A DNA stretch of 41,386 nucleotides, from the NCBI GenBank assembly GCA_030532365.1, contig JAUNLH010000012.1, forward strand, positions 1 to 41,386, read 5' to 3'. The notes beneath the pieces were generated by a model. That model was not told where the DNA came from. It ran no database searches and saw only the letters and a list, made by a program, of their open reading frames with translations. This DNA is from Porphyromonas sp. GTDB lineage: Bacteria > Bacteroidota > Bacteroidia > Bacteroidales > Porphyromonadaceae. Below are positions 250 to 29,368 of the stretch, piece by piece. Each line of letters begins with the position of its first letter. Position 1 is the stretch's first letter. The position numbers were made by a program, and so were the translations under genes.

Positions 250-1965
250 CTACTTACGTAGGTGGAAGAGGACCTCCAGACCACCAGATGGGTGGATGCG
301 TGCTTGTACCTGACCGCCATGTATCTGTATGGCATTGCGTACGATACTGAGCCCAAGCCCAGTGCCACCCTTGCCCTCTTCGCTCTTGCCCTCATCGGCA
401 CGGTAGAAGCGGTCGAAGAGGCGTCCTAGGGTCTTCTCGTCGACGCCCTTACCGGTGTCGTGGTAGGAGATGTAGGCATATTTCTTATCTTCGTGGTAGC
501 TGCGAATATTTATCTCTATGTTGTCTCCAGCGTATCGGAGTGAGTTCTCTACAAGGTTCTTGAATATATCATAGAGAAGGCTCTGATTTCCTCTGATGGT
601 TAGTTCAGAGGGGAGTTCGTTGGCAAACGTGATGCCGTGCTCCGTAAAGGCTGCCGTGTAGGCGATGCGGATCTCCTCGGCTACGAGTCGGAGGTTTACC
701 GGTGTGAAGTCGACCAGAGCCTCATCCTCGTCATCGAGCTTAGTGAGTAGGCGGATGTCGTCGAGTACCTCATTCATGTGGACTGCCTGGCTGTATGCCT
801 TCTGGGTAAACTCCTTGCGCTTCTCGTCGGAGATGTCCATGAAATTGAGCGTCTCGAGGTAACTGCGAATAGAGATGAGTGGGGTGCGCAACTTCTGTGT
901 GATGCTACTCGTCATCTCATGCTTGAGGACTCGGTTGTTCTCCTCCTTGGTTATATCCTCAATCGTTAGCTCAAAACTGCCGTCTTTTGACTTAAGTGCC
1001 TTGATTTCAAATATCTTATTGCACTGGTTGATGGTCTGGATGAGACTTTTCTTTTTGTGCTTCTTATCCTCGAGGAAGTGCTTGACTTTCTCAAGGTTAG
1101 GCTCGTCTATCAGCTCATTGGCATTGGTCATTGGTCTAGTTGCCAGCATATTGGCGTAGAGGATGAAGTGGCTATTGGCGAACTCCGTATTTCCATCCTT
1201 ATCAAAGAGCGCTATGCCTATATTTGAGAGCTTGAAGTGCAGGATCAGGCGCTTGCGTGCTTCACGTATGGCTGCTATTGCCTGCTCCTTCTCCTTCAGG
1301 AGATCGACTATCTGCTGCCCCATGGCGCCGAAGTCATCGGAGGGCAGAGCTAGCTGATCGAGAGGGACACCCTGTGCTATCTGATTGCTCAGGTCACCAA
1401 GCTGGCGTAGTGAGGTATTGTACCTCCGCACGAGCATGAATAGAGCAATCATCATTAGGAGAAAGACTATGATACTCGTGTAGATGAAGTAATAGTTATT
1501 GGTTTCTAGCCCCTGATAGTAGGTATTGACGTGGTCGTACGGTAGTGCGGCACGTATGTAGTGATCGCCATAGTAGCGTGCGTAGTAAAAGGTCTTTGTA
1601 CCGGTAGTCTTGGAGGTACGTACCGACGTCCCCACTTTATGGAAGCGGGCTTGCTGTAGCTCTGGGCGCGTGTCGTGATTGCCCATGGTAGAGGCATCAG
1701 GCACCCCTGTGTCGAGGAGTACCTTGCCATCGTTGTTAACAATAGTGACCCTCAGGTCCTTGGGTATGTCGGGTAGGAGTAGGTCTACAGTTCCTTTCTC
1801 ATAGGCATTGTTGATGACCTCAGCGTGTGCATCGAGCTTCGACAGGAGGAGCTCCCGACGTATCTCGGACTCCTGACGCTGGTGGATGTATACCATCGCC
1901 CCTGTATAGGCAAGTAGGAGCAGGAGAAGTGAGATGAATAGTCTTTGTATCAGTGAGTTCTTCAA
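250..1965 (-). CDS. PhoR-like sensor histidine kinase lacking the phospho-acceptor His
   Basis: This is a membrane sensor kinase of 571 aa. Transmembrane segments lie at about 7-27 and 158-182 and flank a periplasmic sensor region. They are followed by a linker/PAS-like region (about 240-345), a dimerisation/H-box region (about 345-410) and an intact HATPase domain: N-box N470/N474, G1 D503-x-G505-x-G507, and G2 GGTGLGLS at 533-540. In the H-box, where relatives have S/A-H-E-L-K/R-T-P, this protein reads T-Q-K-L-R-T-P, so the phospho-accepting His is Gln357 (codon CAG, 897-895). The start codon is TTG. It is the last gene after pstSCAB-phoU (89-nt gap), so it probably senses phosphate status or the Pst/PhoU complex. 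No response regulator is adjacent. It could act as a phosphatase, as the kinase half of a heterodimer, or be degenerate. The family call is firm; the activity is uncertain. Confidence 0.9.
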   Translation of the reverse strand: MKNSLIQRLFISLLLLLLAYTGAMVYIHQRQESEIRRELLLSKLDAHAEVINNAYEKGTVDLLLPDIPKDLRVTIVNNDGKVLLDTGVPDASTMGNHDTRPELQQARFHKVGTSVRTSKTTGTKTFYYARYYGDHYIRAALPYDHVNTYYQGLETNNYYFIYTSIIVFLLMMIALFMLVRRYNTSLRQLGDLSNQIAQGVPLDQLALPSDDFGAMGQQIVDLLKEKEQAIAAIREARKRLILHFKLSNIGIALFDKDGNTEFANSHFILYANMLATRPMTNANELIDEPNLEKVKHFLEDKKHKKKSLIQTINQCNKIFEIKALKSKDGSFELTIEDITKEENNRVLKHEMTSSITQKLRTPLISIRSYLETLNFMDISDEKRKEFTQKAYSQAVHMNEVLDDIRLLTKLDDEDEALVDFTPVNLRLVAEEIRIAYTAAFTEHGITFANELPSELTIRGNQSLLYDIFKNLVENSLRYAGDNIEINIRSYHEDKKYAYISYHDTGKGVDEKTLGRLFDRFYRADEGKSEEGKGGTGLGLSIVRNAIQIHGGQVQARIHPSGGLEVLFHLRK

Positions 1966-2054
1966 TTTTCTAGGGTCTTTGGTTAGGTTTTGAATTGGTG
2001 GTAGGTGGGGGGATCTCCGATCAGATCTCAGCTTCGCTCTGGTATGTCGTGAGT

Positions 2055-2744
2055 TTACTGCTTCTTGTTGAGATCTTCGCCGTGCCTTATGTCTCTACCC
2101 TTGATGAGGTAGATGGTAGACTCTGCGATATTAGTAGCACTGTCACCACAGCGCTCGAGGTTGTGTGCGATGCATTCGATACTGATGAGCTCGTAGACCT
2201 CCTCAGGCGTTAGCTCTCTGTATGAGTACATCTCGCTCATGAGATCCTTGATATAATGATACCCCTCATCGACCTTGTCGTCGCCCTCTATCACCTCGTA
2301 CGCTACCTGTATCTGCTCGTTGGTGAAGGATAGTATCGCATTGCGAATGAGGAGGTTGACATCGTCAAGCATCTTTACAACGGTATCGCGTACTTTGTGC
2401 AGCTCAGGTCGGTTGAGATCTACCTCCCTGACATAGCGGACGACGTTGAGCACCATGTCACCAACTCGCTCTAGATTGGTCGTGAGGTCTTGGTATGCTA
2501 TGATGCGGCGTAGCTCCTCAGCGACGGGGAAAAACTTGAAGATGGTGAATGCTACCTCCTCACGGATCTTTATCTCTAGGCGGTCTATGATGATTTCATT
2601 ATTCTTCGCCTCTTCGATGAGCTCTTCTGTCTGTGGTTCGTCGATCAGCTTTCTGAGGATGGCAAACTGTAGGAGTACATTCTTGGAAATGAGCTCAAAC
2701 TCCTTGAGTAATATCTGCTGCTGTTGCTGTTTGATGCGGCTCAT
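2055..2744 (-). CDS. phoU: Phosphate transport system regulator PhoU
   Basis: This 229-aa all-helical cytoplasmic protein has the PhoU pattern of two three-helix repeats with acidic metal-binding E/DxxxD-type motifs, for example the stretch around NLERVGDMVLNVVRYVRE and the second copy around NLERCGDSATNIAES. PhoU proteins link the PstSCAB transporter to a PhoR-type kinase and restrain phosphate uptake when phosphate is plentiful. The gene follows pstB by 38 nt and precedes the histidine kinase by 89 nt, the expected order for a phosphate operon. Length is normal for the family. Confidence 0.95.
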   Translation of the reverse strand: MSRIKQQQQQILLKEFELISKNVLLQFAILRKLIDEPQTEELIEEAKNNEIIIDRLEIKIREEVAFTIFKFFPVAEELRRIIAYQDLTTNLERVGDMVLNVVRYVREVDLNRPELHKVRDTVVKMLDDVNLLIRNAILSFTNEQIQVAYEVIEGDDKVDEGYHYIKDLMSEMYSYRELTPEEVYELISIECIAHNLERCGDSATNIAESTIYLIKGRDIRHGEDLNKKQ

Positions 2745-2782: not shown

Positions 2783-3739
2783 TTAGCTAAAGACTCCTGT
2801 TAGGTAATCCTCTGTCTGCTTGTGCTTTGGCTTGGTAAACATCTTGTCGGTATCGCCGTACTCTATCATCTCGCCCATGTACATGAAGACAGACTTATCA
2901 GAGATGCGTGCTGCCTGGCTCATGTTGTGCGTTACGATGATGATGGAGTACTTCTCCTTGAGCTCTAGTATCAGCTCTTCTATCCTATTGGTAGCGATGG
3001 GGTCTAGTGCTGAGGTGGGCTCGTCCATCAGCAAAACCTCAGGTCGCATGGCCAGTGCACGGGCGATACAGAGGCGTTGTTGCTGCCCACCTGAGAGGAA
3101 GGTGCCCTTCTTCTTTAGCTGGTCTTTGGTCTCGTCCCATAGTGCGACGCTCTCAAGGCTTGTCTGGACGATCTCCTCTTTCTCTGACTTTGAGAGTCTT
3201 ATGCCATTGAGCTTGTAACCCGCTAGTACGTTGTCTGCGATAGACATGGTAGGAAATGGGTTAGGACGCTGAAAGACCATGCCGGCTCTACGTCGGGCCT
3301 CCATGGAGTTCATATTGAGCATGTTCTCTCCATTTAGTAGGATTTCGCCCTCAGTCTTGATACTAGGATAGAGGTCGTGCATGCGGTTGATGGCTCGGAG
3401 TAGGGTGCTCTTACCGCATCCGCTTGGTCCCATGACAGCTGTCACTAAGTTCTCATAAAAAGTGACATTGACATCCTTAATCGCCTTTTTCTCAGGTGTA
3501 TATGATACAGACAAGTTGCACACCTTGATGATGGGCTTGAGCTCCTTCTCCTTTGTCGTGGTCGGCTTGTCGAAAAGCGTGTCAGACACTTGGTAGTTGT
3601 CGATAGTGTCGGTAGTCGTCTCGATATTAGTGACGTCTTTGCTCACCTCTTGCTCTGCGGTTGGTTGAGCCGTTGATGTGGGCGTTTCAGATTTCATATT
3701 AGTCACAGTTGTATTTAGGGTTTGTTTTGTATTTATCAT
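2783..3739 (-). CDS. pstB: Phosphate ABC transporter ATP-binding protein PstB, N-terminally extended
   Basis: This is the ATPase subunit of the high-affinity phosphate importer. Walker [10 protein letters not shown] is at 104-112, followed by the LSGGQQQRL signature, the Walker [13 protein letters not shown] and a switch His (IVTHNM). PstB is usually about 250 aa; this ORF is 318 aa because of a Thr/Glu-rich, low-complexity extension of about 66 residues before the conserved core starts ([11 protein letters not shown]). The ATG lies 3 nt after the pstA stop, which fits translational coupling. An internal Met15 exists, but none lies close to the core, so at least most of the extension is probably translated. 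Confidence 0.96.
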
Positions 3740-3742
3740 TAC

Positions 3743-4669
3743 TTAGTTGATGCGCCATTTGTTTGCCACTGCCTTTGCGAGAAGGTTCATGCCAAAGATA
3801 AGGATAAGTAGTAAGAGTGAGGAAGACCAGATCAAGTCTGCAAGGTTGGGATCGTTGTAGAACTCCCAAATCAACAAGCTCACAGCGCTCATCGGCTTAG
3901 TGATGTTGTAGCTGATGTAGTTGGCTCCTAGCGCAGTTACCATCAAAGGTGCCGTCTCTCCCATCACCCTGGAGATGGCGAGTAGGATGCCGGTGAATAG
4001 TCCTCCAAAGGCACTAGGGACTATGACTCGGAACATTACCGAAGTGTACGACGCCCCAAGGCCTAGCCCTGCCTCCTTGAGCGTGGTAGGGATCATCGCG
4101 ATACTCTCCTCTGTGCTTCGTATGATCATTGGTAGCATCATGAAGCCAAGGGAGACACCACCAGCAAGTGCGCTAAAGCTGTGCATGGTGCTCACAATCC
4201 ACATGTAGACCACAATACCGTACACGATAGATGGGATGCCCTGTAGTATGTCGGTGAGGACTCGGACGACCTTTGCTAGCCAGCTCTCTTTTTTCTCTGC
4301 TAGGAAGATGCCAGCAAATATACCGAGTGGAACTGCCATTGCGATGGCTATCGCTAGCATCATCAGTGTTCCTGTGATACCATTTAGGATACCACCTGGT
4401 ATGATCTCCCCTGACTCTCTCGCATACATAGCCTCCATAGAGGTTGGTACGACCTGCGTGAAGAGACCTAGGTTGAACTGCTTGTAGCCCTTGACAATCA
4501 ACTCAAAGAGGATCGAGAAGAGCGGAATAGCAGTGGAGATGGTTAGGATGATCACTAGGACATAGATGAATCTATCTGCTGCGATCTTGGATTTTAGCCT
4601 TGTAGGTCTTGAGGCTACCTCTGCGATCTTGTCTTGTTGTACCTGTGAAGTAATATCTGTCGAAGACAT
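3743..4669 (-). CDS. pstA: Phosphate ABC transporter permease PstA
   Basis: This inner-membrane permease (308 aa) has about six hydrophobic segments and the BPD_transp_1 cytoplasmic-loop motif EAGLGLGASYTSVMFRVIVPSA, which docks onto PstB. It forms the phosphate channel with PstC. The N-terminal 25 residues or so are hydrophilic, followed by a first membrane helix around 32-58. It lies between pstC (22-nt gap) and pstB (3-nt gap) in the pstSCAB order. Nothing unusual was seen. Confidence 0.96.
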   Translation of the reverse strand: MSSTDITSQVQQDKIAEVASRPTRLKSKIAADRFIYVLVIILTISTAIPLFSILFELIVKGYKQFNLGLFTQVVPTSMEAMYARESGEIIPGGILNGITGTLMMLAIAIAMAVPLGIFAGIFLAEKKESWLAKVVRVLTDILQGIPSIVYGIVVYMWIVSTMHSFSALAGGVSLGFMMLPMIIRSTEESIAMIPTTLKEAGLGLGASYTSVMFRVIVPSAFGGLFTGILLAISRVMGETAPLMVTALGANYISYNITKPMSAVSLLIWEFYNDPNLADLIWSSSLLLLILIFGMNLLAKAVANKWRIN

Positions 4670-4691: not shown

Positions 4692-5540
4692 TTACTTACT
4701 GAGTTGTTTAATTACTGCTTTGGCAATCAGATTGATAATAGCAGTGATTAAGAATAGTAGGAAACCAATAGCAAAGAGTGAGCTTAGCTTAAGACCTGAT
4801 GCCTCACCAAACTGGTTGGCAATGACACTTGCCATGGTATTTCCGGTGTCTGCCAGACTGATGGGTATGTTATTGGTGTTACCTATCAGCATGGTTACAG
4901 CCATGGTCTCTCCGAGTGCTCGCCCAAAGGCTAGGATATATGCAGCAAAGATGCCGGATCCAGACACTGGGAGGCTTATGGTCTTGATTGTCTCAAGCTG
5001 AGTCGCCCCTAGACTATATGCGCCCTCTTTGAGATCATTGGGCACCATGCTGATGAACTCCGTACTTAGCGATGACGCATAGGGTATAATCATGATAGCC
5101 AGTACGATAGAAGCTAGTAGGATGCCAAAGCCCTGTGAATTGACCCCTAGTTGTATCAGTATAGGTCTTACAGTGTAGAAGCCCCAGATACCATAGACAA
5201 TAGAGGGGACACCTGCTAAGAGATCTACTATTGAGCCAGCGATTCTAGCAATTCTCTTACCTCTGAAGTACTCCCCATTGAAGATTGCTACTGATAGAGA
5301 GAACGGGATGCAGAAGACGAGTGCAAGGAGAGAGGTTAGGAGTGTGCCCGCAATAAAGGGGAGGGCACCATAGGTGTCACTTCTCGAGACCCACTCAGAA
5401 GAAGCTACAAACTTTAGTAGTCCAAACTCCCTGAAGGCAGGGAGGCTCTCCGTAGTTAGAGCGTACAAGATACCAGCGGCAACTACTACAATAAAGACAC
5501 CCGCTAGTGTGAGGAGTAAATTGAATATCTTATCCTTCAT
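4692..5540 (-). CDS. pstC: Phosphate ABC transporter permease PstC
   Basis: This is the second permease subunit (282 aa) with an N-terminal membrane helix (about 7-30), several further hydrophobic segments, and the coupling-loop motif KEGAYSLGATQLETIKTISLPVSGSG (shortened: EGAYSLGATQLETI). It pairs with PstA in the inner membrane. Its start overlaps the end of pstS by 11 nt, so translation is likely coupled to pstS. Length is near the family norm of about 290-320. Confidence 0.95.
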   Translation of the reverse strand: MKDKIFNLLLTLAGVFIVVVAAGILYALTTESLPAFREFGLLKFVASSEWVSRSDTYGALPFIAGTLLTSLLALVFCIPFSLSVAIFNGEYFRGKRIARIAGSIVDLLAGVPSIVYGIWGFYTVRPILIQLGVNSQGFGILLASIVLAIMIIPYASSLSTEFISMVPNDLKEGAYSLGATQLETIKTISLPVSGSGIFAAYILAFGRALGETMAVTMLIGNTNNIPISLADTGNTMASVIANQFGEASGLKLSSLFAIGFLLFLITAIINLIAKAVIKQLSK

Positions 5541-6624
5541 TGATCTCGCTAGTAATATTTTTTTCTACTTCTGTAGGATCAGCTGCCCACAATGGCTCAC
5601 CATTGTAAGTCATGCTTTTGATGACTGCCTCTGCCTTCTTTCTGGCTGACAAGGGTAGAGGTACATAGTGCGTCTTGGATGCGCTCCTAGCACCTTCCTC
5701 TCCGACAAGGAATAGGAGGAACTTCTGGAGCTCCTGTACGTGTCTGAGCGACCTCCCATAGTAATTCTGCTCCTTGTACACGATGACCCAAGTCATGGTA
5801 CTGATAGGATAGGCATCGGGGTGGGTAGGATTTGAGATGATAGCACGTGTGTCGTCGGGTAGGTCTTTGTCAGCACTGAGCTTAATTGTCTCGAGATTGG
5901 CCTCTACGAACTTCCCAGCTCTGTTCTGCATTCGAGCTGATACTATGTCCATCGCCAGTGCATACTCGGATCCTAGGTAGCCAATAGATCCCACAGTCTG
6001 CCCGATTACTCCGGCTACACCAGGGTTGCCCTTCGCAGCGATGCCTACTGGAAAGTTGACGGACTTCCCTGCGCCGATGGCTTCATCCCATTCGGTGCTC
6101 ACCTGGCTCATAAAGCCAGTGAATACTGCTGTCGTACCACTACCTTCACTACGGTAAACCACAGTAATGGGTTGATCTGGAAGGATGACATCTGGATTCG
6201 CCTCCGCAAGTGCTGGGTCATTCCAGTTCGTGATATTGCCAAGGAATATGTCTGTCACCAGATCTGGTGTAAGGTTAAGCACCGGTACATCATCAAGATT
6301 GTATGATAGTACCACGCCTCCAATACAAGTGGGGATATGGAGCACTTCGGCTGGCATCTCCGCCATCTCGCTGTCTGACATAAAGACATCTGTACCTCCA
6401 AAGTCGACTGTGTGCTCTTCGAGGTTTCGGATACCTGCACCGCTGCCCATGGCTCCGTAGCTAATTTTGATGCCACTTAGCTGATCGTAGAGCTTCGTTG
6501 CATCGCTGTAGAATGGTGCGGGAAACGTGGCTCCCGCGCCGCTAAGTATAACGTTATCTCTTCCGCATGATGAAGCCAGCAGAAGTGTGACCACTAGTGA
6601 GATGATTGATGGAAGTGCTCTCAT
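5530..6624 (-). CDS. pstS: Phosphate-binding lipoprotein PstS
   Basis: This periplasmic phosphate-binding protein delivers phosphate to PstCA. From the chosen ATG at 6624 it is 364 aa, with a lipoprotein signal peptide ending in the lipobox LASSC (Cys20). The mature part starts with the PstS pattern SGAGATFPAPFY and carries the phosphate-site segments YGAMGSGAG, FGGTD and RSEGSGTTAVF. An ORF runs upstream in frame to an ATG at 6702, but a consensus TAACTTTG promoter box at 6673-6680 puts the likely transcription start near 6669, downstream of that ATG. The 6624 start also gives a standard signal peptide and an A-rich upstream sequence. It is the first gene of the operon. Confidence 0.94.
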   Translation of the reverse strand: MRALPSIISLVVTLLLASSCGRDNVILSGAGATFPAPFYSDATKLYDQLSGIKISYGAMGSGAGIRNLEEHTVDFGGTDVFMSDSEMAEMPAEVLHIPTCIGGVVLSYNLDDVPVLNLTPDLVTDIFLGNITNWNDPALAEANPDVILPDQPITVVYRSEGSGTTAVFTGFMSQVSTEWDEAIGAGKSVNFPVGIAAKGNPGVAGVIGQTVGSIGYLGSEYALAMDIVSARMQNRAGKFVEANLETIKLSADKDLPDDTRAIISNPTHPDAYPISTMTWVIVYKEQNYYGRSLRHVQELQKFLLFLVGEEGARSASKTHYVPLPLSARKKAEAVIKSMTYNGEPLWAADPTEVEKNITSEINEG

Positions 6625-6672
6625 ATTTTTTTGAAACATAGAGTACGGTTTGCCTCTTCTCGACATCTGTAG

Positions 6673-6680
6673 CAAAGTTA
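6673..6680 (-). promoter_or_regulatory. Bacteroidota-type -7 promoter box of the pst operon
   Basis: The minus strand reads TAACTTTG, a perfect match to the Bacteroidota TAnnTTTG element. It would start transcription near 6669, giving a 5' leader of about 45 nt to the pstS ATG at 6624. No clear -33 TTTG was found at the usual distance. Confidence 0.6.
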
Positions 6681-6722
6681 ACATATATCCTTCATTTTTC
6701 ATAGCTTAATTTGATCAAAGAC

Positions 6723-8192
6723 TTACATTAAAGGGGCGAAAAGACGTAGCGCCGACTCCCACAGTCGCTTGATGAGCGGGCGTTGCTTCCAATCTTCATA
6801 GTAAAGTTCTGTAGAGTTATTTAGGTCCTGCTCGAAGCATCGGTTGAGCATCGAGGTGCACTCCCTGTCGTATAGCAATGAAGTGATCTCGAAATTGTGC
6901 TCCATACTGCGGAAGTCCATGTTGGCTGATCCGATGATAGATAGTTTTTCGTCTATAGTGACCACCTTGGCGTGTAGGAAACCCTCTTGGTAGAGGTATA
7001 TGTGTACACCTGCCTTGAGCATATTGTCGAAGTAGGAGCGAGCTGCGGCATTCACGCCTAGAATATCGCTGGAGCGAGGTAGCATAAGCTCCACCTTTAC
7101 ACCGGCTAAGGCAGCCCCCGCTATTGCCTTGTAGAGGCTCTCTGGAGGGAGGAAGTAGGGGGTCTGTATACGGACGCTCCTCTTTGCTTCATATATGGCA
7201 CGGCATAGCACCTGCTGTAGTATGCGAAAACTACCTGTAGGTCCGCTGGTAAAAGTCTGCATCATTACGTTGTGGTCTATGCAGGATCGCACTCTACTAC
7301 TATCGTAGCTTAGGGTACTCCCCCCTCCGATGATAGAATTATAGAAGAAAGACTTGGGCAGTACCTTACGTGATGCTACGTACCAGTCTGTCATGAATGC
7401 AGCCTGTAGAGCATTCACAGCTCTACCAGTGATTCTAGCATGTGTATCTCTCCACTTTCCGAGCTTATTGCCATAAGTGTAATGATCAGCGATGTTCATA
7501 CCTCCCACATAGCCAATAGATCCATCTATGACGACGATCTTGCGGTGGTTGCGGTAGTTGATCTTGCTAGTCAGAGCAGGGAAAACTACCTCTAGGATCG
7601 GGTAGACTTCTATCCCCGCTGCTCGCATCTCTCTAAAGTAGGCTTTGGATGTATTGAAGCTCCCAACGTGGTCGTACAGCACTCTAACTTCGATCCCTTC
7701 CTGTGCTTTCTCGATGAGGGCTTCCTGCAGCTGCGTGCCGGTCTTATCATCGCGTATGATGTAGTACTGGATGTGTATGTGGTGCTTCGCTGATTTGATG
7801 TCAGCGATGAGGGCTTCTAACTTTTCTTTTCCTGCAGTGAAGAGTTCTAGATTATCTGCCTCCATGACGCTGTTGCTCGTCTGCTGGAGGATCATCTCCT
7901 TTAGCCGCTGGTGCTCACGAATGAGATCGTTAGGTTCTGAAACCACACCTATGGGAGCCTCAGGTGTAGCGCTCTGCATGATGCGCTCGTAGGAGCGCTT
8001 AGAAATGATCCTATGTCTCCTCGTATCCTTTCCTACCATGAGATACAAGACAAAGCCAACACCAGGTAGCAGGACAAGGATCGTTACCCAACTGAGAGCC
8101 TTTAGTGGGTTACGATTTTCCAGTAGGACGGTGAGGATCGTACTGACAATGATGAAGATATAGATATATAGTAAGATCGTGTGCCAGTTCAT
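6723..8192 (-). CDS. cls: Cardiolipin synthase (phospholipase D family)
   Basis: This 489-aa membrane enzyme should condense phosphatidylglycerol molecules (or PG with another phospholipid) to cardiolipin. Two N-terminal hydrophobic segments (about 5-25 and 33-53) are followed by two PLD domains with HxKxxxxD motifs: NHRKIVVIDGS near residue 214 and LHAKVVTIDEK near residue 406. Each is followed by the usual GG/GSANMD segment. Length is typical of bacterial Cls. It stands alone between the xse unit (57-nt gap upstream) and the pst operon, and it could be transcribed from the leuS-xse operon. Confidence 0.95.
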   Translation of the reverse strand: MNWHTILLYIYIFIIVSTILTVLLENRNPLKALSWVTILVLLPGVGFVLYLMVGKDTRRHRIISKRSYERIMQSATPEAPIGVVSEPNDLIREHQRLKEMILQQTSNSVMEADNLELFTAGKEKLEALIADIKSAKHHIHIQYYIIRDDKTGTQLQEALIEKAQEGIEVRVLYDHVGSFNTSKAYFREMRAAGIEVYPILEVVFPALTSKINYRNHRKIVVIDGSIGYVGGMNIADHYTYGNKLGKWRDTHARITGRAVNALQAAFMTDWYVASRKVLPKSFFYNSIIGGGSTLSYDSSRVRSCIDHNVMMQTFTSGPTGSFRILQQVLCRAIYEAKRSVRIQTPYFLPPESLYKAIAGAALAGVKVELMLPRSSDILGVNAAARSYFDNMLKAGVHIYLYQEGFLHAKVVTIDEKLSIIGSANMDFRSMEHNFEITSLLYDRECTSMLNRCFEQDLNNSTELYYEDWKQRPLIKRLWESALRLFAPLM

Positions 8193-14652: not shown

Positions 14653-14757
14653 TGACCCCCGAACTCAGAAAATCTAAGTTCCCAACTTCGACACGTCGAA
14701 GTTCCGGTCTTAGATGTATCGAAGTTCCCAACTTAGATCAGCTTAAGTTGGGAACTT
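14653..14757. repeat. Array B of 13-nt palindromes, exact 23-nt period
   Basis: Clear units start at 14676, 14699, 14722 and 14745, exactly 23 nt apart. They are AAGTTCCCAACTT, AAGTTCCGGTCTT (degenerate), AAGTTCCCAACTT and AAGTTGGGAACTT. A fifth, badly decayed unit (CCCCGAACTC) lies in register at about 14653. The 10-nt spacers are CGACACGTCG, AGATGTATCG and AGATCAGCTT. The last unit is the reverse complement of the first, so unit orientation varies within one array. The array sits between two plus-strand promoter-like boxes ahead of trmD. Confidence 0.88.
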
Positions 14758-29083: not shown

Positions 29084-29368
29084 CCATTTATTCGCAACGC
29101 ATGCCACCAGCCACTCTCTTAGTTTGTATCGACAAAAATGATCCAGTCTAACTCCCACATCTATATATTATGGAGTACCCAACACACTAGATCCGAACTC
29201 GAGCTAATCCGAGTTGGGAACTTAGAGTTGTCGAAGTTCCGAACTTCGATGCACCTAAGTTGGGAACTTAGAAAATCTAAGTTCGGAGGTCGGATTTTGC
29301 TCAGCGCGGAGCATGGGTTGAGATAGGATTTGGTTTGCTCTTTTAAGAGCTTGTGATGTAGGACGGAG
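29084..29368. other. Intergenic region holding array C
   Basis: Apart from the palindrome array (29188-29291), this gap contains a small palindrome GCTCTTTTAAGAGC near 29338 and a hairpin TGCTC-GAGCA near 29297. I see no gene and no RNA family I recognise. Confidence 0.6.
29188..29291. repeat. Array C of 13-nt palindromes, 22-23 nt period
   Basis: Units start at 29211 (GAGTTGGGAACTT), 29234 (AAGTTCCGAACTT), 29257 (AAGTTGGGAACTT) and 29279 (degenerate AAGTTCGGAGGTC). A decayed copy lies in register at 29188 (ATCCGAACTC). Starts are 23, 23 and 22 nt apart. Spacers are AGAGTTGTCG, CGATGCACCT and AGAAAATCT. The unit at 29234 extends to the 19-nt palindrome TCGAAGTTCCGAACTTCGA. CGATGCACCT is the reverse complement of an array A spacer. 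The array lies between the promoter of the activator operon and the terminator of nadE. Confidence 0.88.

Follow-up and report, generated by a model that had tools for sequence, protein, structure and literature searches.

Read from its sequence, the phosphate locus of this Porphyromonas genome has had its phosphotransfer output dismantled: phoB is gone, the PhoB-type site before pstS is gone, and the sensor protein PhoR has lost the phospho-acceptor His, the adjacent Glu and two Arg of the ATP lid. It is the joint loss of the regulator gene, the catalytic residues and the Pho-box-like repeat that leads to this conclusion. The rates of change of the individual domains, together with the open reading frame, indicate that the product is still under selection, mainly in its membrane sensor and PAS half. 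The best explanation, to which we give an even chance, is that PhoR is a pseudo-histidine kinase kept as a membrane and PAS partner of the transporter complex PhoU-PstSCAB. The features discussed here lie in the window, that is, the whole stretch of 41,386 nucleotides that was analysed, and are collected in Table 1.

Table 1. Features of the pst-phoU-phoR locus and of PhoR, with their positions in the window.
Feature	Positions	Strand	Remarks
phoR, candidate pseudo-histidine kinase	250..1965	-	571 aa, TTG start, open frame; NF053855 match over whole length
N-terminal membrane/periplasmic sensor region, residues 1-160	1486..1965	-	ordinary rate
PAS domain, residues 236-342	940..1260	-	rate at or below that of Pst/PhoU
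DHp domain, residues 343-413	727..939	-	changed about twice as much as expected
Linker and CA domain, residues 414-571	253..726	-	mildly accelerated; N, G1, F and G2 motifs kept
Gln357 codon CAG, position of the phospho-acceptor His	895..897	-	read in frame, aligned with relatives
Lys358 codon AAG, position of the catalytic Glu	892..894	-	from alignment; role of Glu from PMC3510030
ATP-lid codons 527-529, Lys527 and Glu529 for two invariant Arg	379..387	-	from orthologue alignment
phoU-phoR junction, 89 bp, place of phoB in 11 of 11 congeners	1966..2054	-	no recognisable phoB remnant
phoU, presumed PhoR partner	2055..2744	-	ordinary rate
pstB	2783-3739	-	
pstA	3743-4669	-	
pstC	4692-5540	-	
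pstS	5530-6702	-	
Core promoter element TAACTTTG before pstS	6673..6680	-	kept
Degenerate remnant ATGTAAGTCTTTGATCAAA at the place of the congeners' Pho-box-like repeat	6710..6728	-	ATGTAA half overlaps the cls stop codon

Descent and catalytic residues of PhoR

The minus-strand frame from 1965 to 250, which includes HEMTSSITQKLRTPLISIRSYLETL, holds 571 codons and zero internal stops, and the open frame reported by the first-pass annotation is thereby borne out. Residues 5-571 of the product align to the NCBIfam model of Bacteroidales PhoR (NF053855) with 462.8 bits, slightly below the cut-off of 500 bits for this model. The Pfam matches are HisKA and HATPase_c, together with weaker sCache-like and PAS matches, and both the full-length similarity and the domain order (sensor, PAS, HisKA, HATPase_c) are those of the family. 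The protein clusters with the PhoR of its congeners, and the gene still adjoins phoU and the pst genes; the nearest PhoR orthologue is 51% identical, and synonymous sites are saturated. As far as sequence and neighbourhood can tell, the protein is a PhoR by descent, and by function it is outside the definition of a PhoR sensor kinase: Gln357-Lys358 stands where such a kinase has its phospho-acceptor His and adjacent Glu, a cognate PhoB is missing both from the locus and from the 90% complete assembly, and there is no Pho box before pstS. Its features are those of a pseudo-histidine kinase, in which catalytic residues are lost from an otherwise complete HisKA-HATPase protein.

The H-box reads ITQKLRTP here and ITHEIRTP or IAHELRTP in relatives. 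Gln in place of the phospho-acceptor His (CAG at 897-895) and Lys in place of the neighbouring Glu had both been proposed in the first-pass annotation, and both are confirmed: the His-Glu pair occupies positions 357-358 in 25 of 25 full-length orthologues from the first retrieval and in 134 of 134 other distinct Bacteroidales PhoR proteins (a survey of 392 Bacteroidales genomes plus a family search, with the matches fetched and aligned), Gln-Lys being found only here. A Gln conserved across species had been named as support for function; on this alignment Gln357 is a private derived state of this genome. The two ATP-lid Arg of HisKA kinases grip the phosphates of the nucleotide, and Arg527 and Arg529 are likewise present in all 134 other proteins and replaced by Lys and Glu only in this one. 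The ATP-binding boxes, described earlier as intact, are so in the N box and the G1, F and G2 motifs, which are retained, but not in the lid, where the Arg pair is lost (R527K, R529E). As regards the second change in the H-box, an acidic residue beside the His is needed for kinase activity in CrdS and HK853 (PMC3510030).

Six departures are found at columns that are invariant among 23 orthologues (H357Q, E358K, G368S, L397M, R527K and R529E), four of which bear on catalysis (H357Q, E358K, R527K, R529E), and in a leave-one-out count every other orthologue departs at two positions or fewer. The phosphatase Thr361 of the H-box motif is retained. The rest of the dimerisation helix is not intact as was first thought: 15 of 71 DHp positions are private to this PhoR when it is compared with four sisters. 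The first-pass annotation had also named what would speak against its reading, namely His in all sister species together with scattered disabling changes in this strain; His is indeed present in every sister species, but the disabling changes cluster at catalytic sites instead of being scattered.

The phosphate locus without phoB

In 11 of 11 congeners the genes run pstC-pstA-pstB-phoU-phoB-phoR, and in the seven nearest of them pstS precedes pstC. Here phoU is followed after 89 bp by phoR, on the same contig and with no phoB between them, and no recognisable remnant of phoB was found in this 89-bp junction. No PhoB equivalog was found in this assembly (1.69 Mb, 90% complete), which holds two receiver domains, one in the RprY regulator and one in a hybrid protein. 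Both were considered as a PhoB located elsewhere and rejected: the OmpR-type regulator is RprY (389.6 bits to NF051850) and adjoins its own kinase, and the second receiver belongs to the hybrid protein. Across the 38 genomes of the family, each of the 21 others that encode a full PhoR carries a PhoB orthologue next to phoR, and the remaining genomes have neither PhoR nor PhoB, except for one with PhoB at a contig edge. A PhoR without PhoB is thus confined, among these 38, to this genome, represented by one draft with no same-species replicate.

Upstream of pstS, 7 of 7 near congeners (L067-L073) have a TGTAAC-N5-TGTAAC direct repeat with an 11-bp period, located 50, 50, 50, 39, 28, 50 and 50 bp from a TAnnTTTG core; these spacings differ by multiples of 11 bp, the pattern that a phased activator site would show. 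In two congener genomes the exact repeat was found a single time each, in both cases before pstS. Its position, its repeat form and its resemblance to known Pho boxes suggest that it is the PhoB site. No Pho-box-like site was found upstream of pstS in the present genome, where the best score is 4.3 (reached by 197 of 300 shuffles) compared with 19.5-25.9 in the congeners. The ATGTAA half of the remnant may have been kept owing to its overlap with the upstream cls stop codon. To our knowledge, no Pho box consensus has been described for the genus, and TGTAAC-N5-TGTAAC, at 28, 39 or 50 bp before TAnnTTTG, is a candidate.

The entire Pho system is often lost in the family: most genomes of the sister genus (g2) have neither PhoR, PhoB nor PhoU. 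One sister-genus genome without PhoB and PhoU keeps a fragment of phoR that consists of the CA domain only (L028 1501-1833, G036:C33; 54% identical to the CA domain of the present PhoR) and directly follows a phosphate-selective-porin-like gene; this is a truly decayed phoR. Three Bacteroidales genomes (L170/G379, L171/G208, L177/G421) encode an additional, divergent PhoR, next to which lies a PhoB-like regulator of its own.

A dispersed palindromic repeat, AAGTTCSSAACTT, is located at 2-14, 25-37, 14676-14757 and 29234-29269 of the window, in intergenic clusters with a 23-bp period. It has 173 forward and 170 reverse matches in this genome and 0 or 1 in 11 congeners, a control pattern giving 0, and it shows a putative likeness to the BrickBuilt minisatellite/MITE of P. 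gingivalis (PMC4596501). Several contigs, that of phoR included, start or end at this repeat, which therefore breaks the assembly beside phoR.

Domain rates and the alternatives

The part of the total change that falls on this lineage was estimated for each domain on a fixed tree of eight species, with bootstrap. This share is 0.132 (bootstrap 0.111-0.153) for Pst and PhoU taken together, 0.095 for the PhoR sensor, 0.111 for the TM2-linker and 0.080 (0.046-0.132) for PAS; it is 0.192 (0.128-0.245) for CA, a weak acceleration, and 0.265 (0.176-0.356), about twofold, for DHp. Relaxation or remodelling is limited to the kinase half and is most marked in DHp, where the response regulator makes contact. 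Under a model of uniform decay, a rough sum in which the fastest domain is taken as a proxy for the neutral rate and the drift time is derived from the DHp excess, a PAS share of 0.177 and about 9.6 stops would be expected, compared with the 0.080 and zero stops observed. The same sum for the kinase half alone gives only about 3.8 expected stops (P ~0.02), and for this reason the evidence for selection on CA is weaker than that for the sensor and PAS.

These figures bear on the possibility that PhoR is a relic in decay, useless after the loss of PhoB and drifting, with a frame that is open by chance. We regard this as rather unlikely. The relaxed kinase half would agree with it, as would the loss of PhoR in most sister-genus genomes, one of which keeps a CA fragment only; but the sensor and PAS are not accelerated, there are zero stops where the rough neutral model expects about 9.6, the motifs of the nucleotide pocket are intact, and the changes are concentrated at catalytic sites. 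The initial opinion that this is not ordinary decay is supported, and on grounds that go beyond the H-box alone, given that phoB, the site before pstS and the lid Arg are lost, the sensor and PAS are constrained and the frame is open. The excess in CA could reflect relaxed selection on the kinase half, so that nucleotide sensing may be disappearing; since the sister genus has commonly lost the whole Pho system, the present state could conceivably be a step towards such loss.

A different two-component target appears improbable. PhoR would be a phosphatase or decoy for RprY, or the inactive half of a heterodimer with the RprX-like kinase, in the manner of ChrS and HrrS. The retained Thr361, the presence in the genome of an RprX-like/RprY pair with a normal H-box and the precedent of ChrS (PMC9491836) speak for such a target, but DHp, the surface for both a dimer partner and a regulator, is the most changed part of the protein, and the RprX-like kinase is only 23-24% identical to PhoR. 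An action of PhoR on RprY is possible but unsupported.

Even less probable is a PhoB encoded in the unassembled tenth of the genome, with PhoR acting as a dedicated phosphatase or being trans-phosphorylated. Room for it is left by the 90% completeness of the assembly, the location of phoR at a contig end and the conservation of Thr361; against this, phoB adjoins phoR in each of the 21 other phoR-bearing genomes of the family, phoU and phoR are directly joined here on one contig, and the Pho-box-like site has been lost too. A sequencing or assembly error, imaginable for a single-copy gene in a draft with no independent genome of the species, is hardly credible, since the catalytic residues have changed independently at several sites (H, E, R, R), in agreement with a deleted gene and an altered promoter, the H-boxes of the genome's other two kinases are normal, and there is no frameshift.

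A candidate role beside the transporter

The retention of PhoR as a partner of PhoU-PstSCAB, the explanation preferred here, draws on enteric bacteria, in which PhoU binds the PAS domain of PhoR, makes contact with its kinase domain as well and connects it to PstB (PMC4423584, PMC9239213). PhoR would still dock PhoU via PAS, and possibly also via a nucleotide-bound CA domain, and would act as a membrane-side regulator or scaffold of PhoU-PstSCAB that tunes phosphate uptake directly, without phosphotransfer, while pst would be transcribed without PhoB. The protein presumably binds ATP. It is more tentatively suggested that PhoR serves as both sensor and ATP-binding subunit of the complex, gating phosphate uptake directly and free of phosphotransfer. 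Three roles had been offered at the outset; two of them, dedicated phosphatase and trans-phosphorylating half, depend on PhoB, which is absent together with its presumed site, and they are unlikely because the substrate is lacking, whereas the route through PhoU would fit best.

By analogy, PhoR here would work most like the pseudo-histidine kinases DivL, which has Tyr at the phospho-acceptor site, or evolved ChrS. DivL of Caulobacter is a repurposed, non-autophosphorylating HisKA/HATPase protein with a non-kinase role, likewise kept for sensing and contacts (PMC4211667); it differs from this PhoR in descent and reads the regulator DivK to control the kinase CckA, whereas here the cognate regulator is gone. 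The ChrS pseudokinase of Corynebacterium glutamicum is also a kinase-dead sensor that still influences the response of the cell, but it arose by a CA frameshift under laboratory selection and works with a paralogous kinase and its regulator ChrA (PMC9491836), while the present case is natural, involves the H-box and the lid, and has no cognate regulator. Both DivL and ChrS act on other two-component proteins; the likely partner here is the transporter complex.

The closest relatives by domain order, full-length family and pst-phoU neighbourhood are the canonical Bacteroidales PhoR-PhoB systems (NF053855/NF053854; BF1575/BF1576 of Bacteroides fragilis, PMC3547664), from which the present locus differs in the absence of the His, the Glu, the lid Arg pair, PhoB and the Pho-box-like site before pstS. 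The PhoU-PhoR-PstB complex of E. coli and Salmonella has an equal protein set, in which PhoU links PhoR to the transporter (PMC4423584, PMC9239213), but that complex has PhoB as its target, which is missing here. The part of the literature that was searched yielded no account of a natural pseudokinase PhoR and no relevant study of PhoR or PhoB in Porphyromonas.

In model bacteria, the PhoB-independent roles of PhoR and the transporter role of PhoU are hard to separate, as every mutant disturbs the Pho regulon. The locus described here would be a natural case of separation of function, in which PhoB, its presumed DNA site and the catalytic residues have apparently been removed and the sensor has been kept. 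It suggests that the loss of output from a two-component system need not end the usefulness of its sensor and, if this is true, PhoR would have a PhoB-independent job that selection can maintain on its own.
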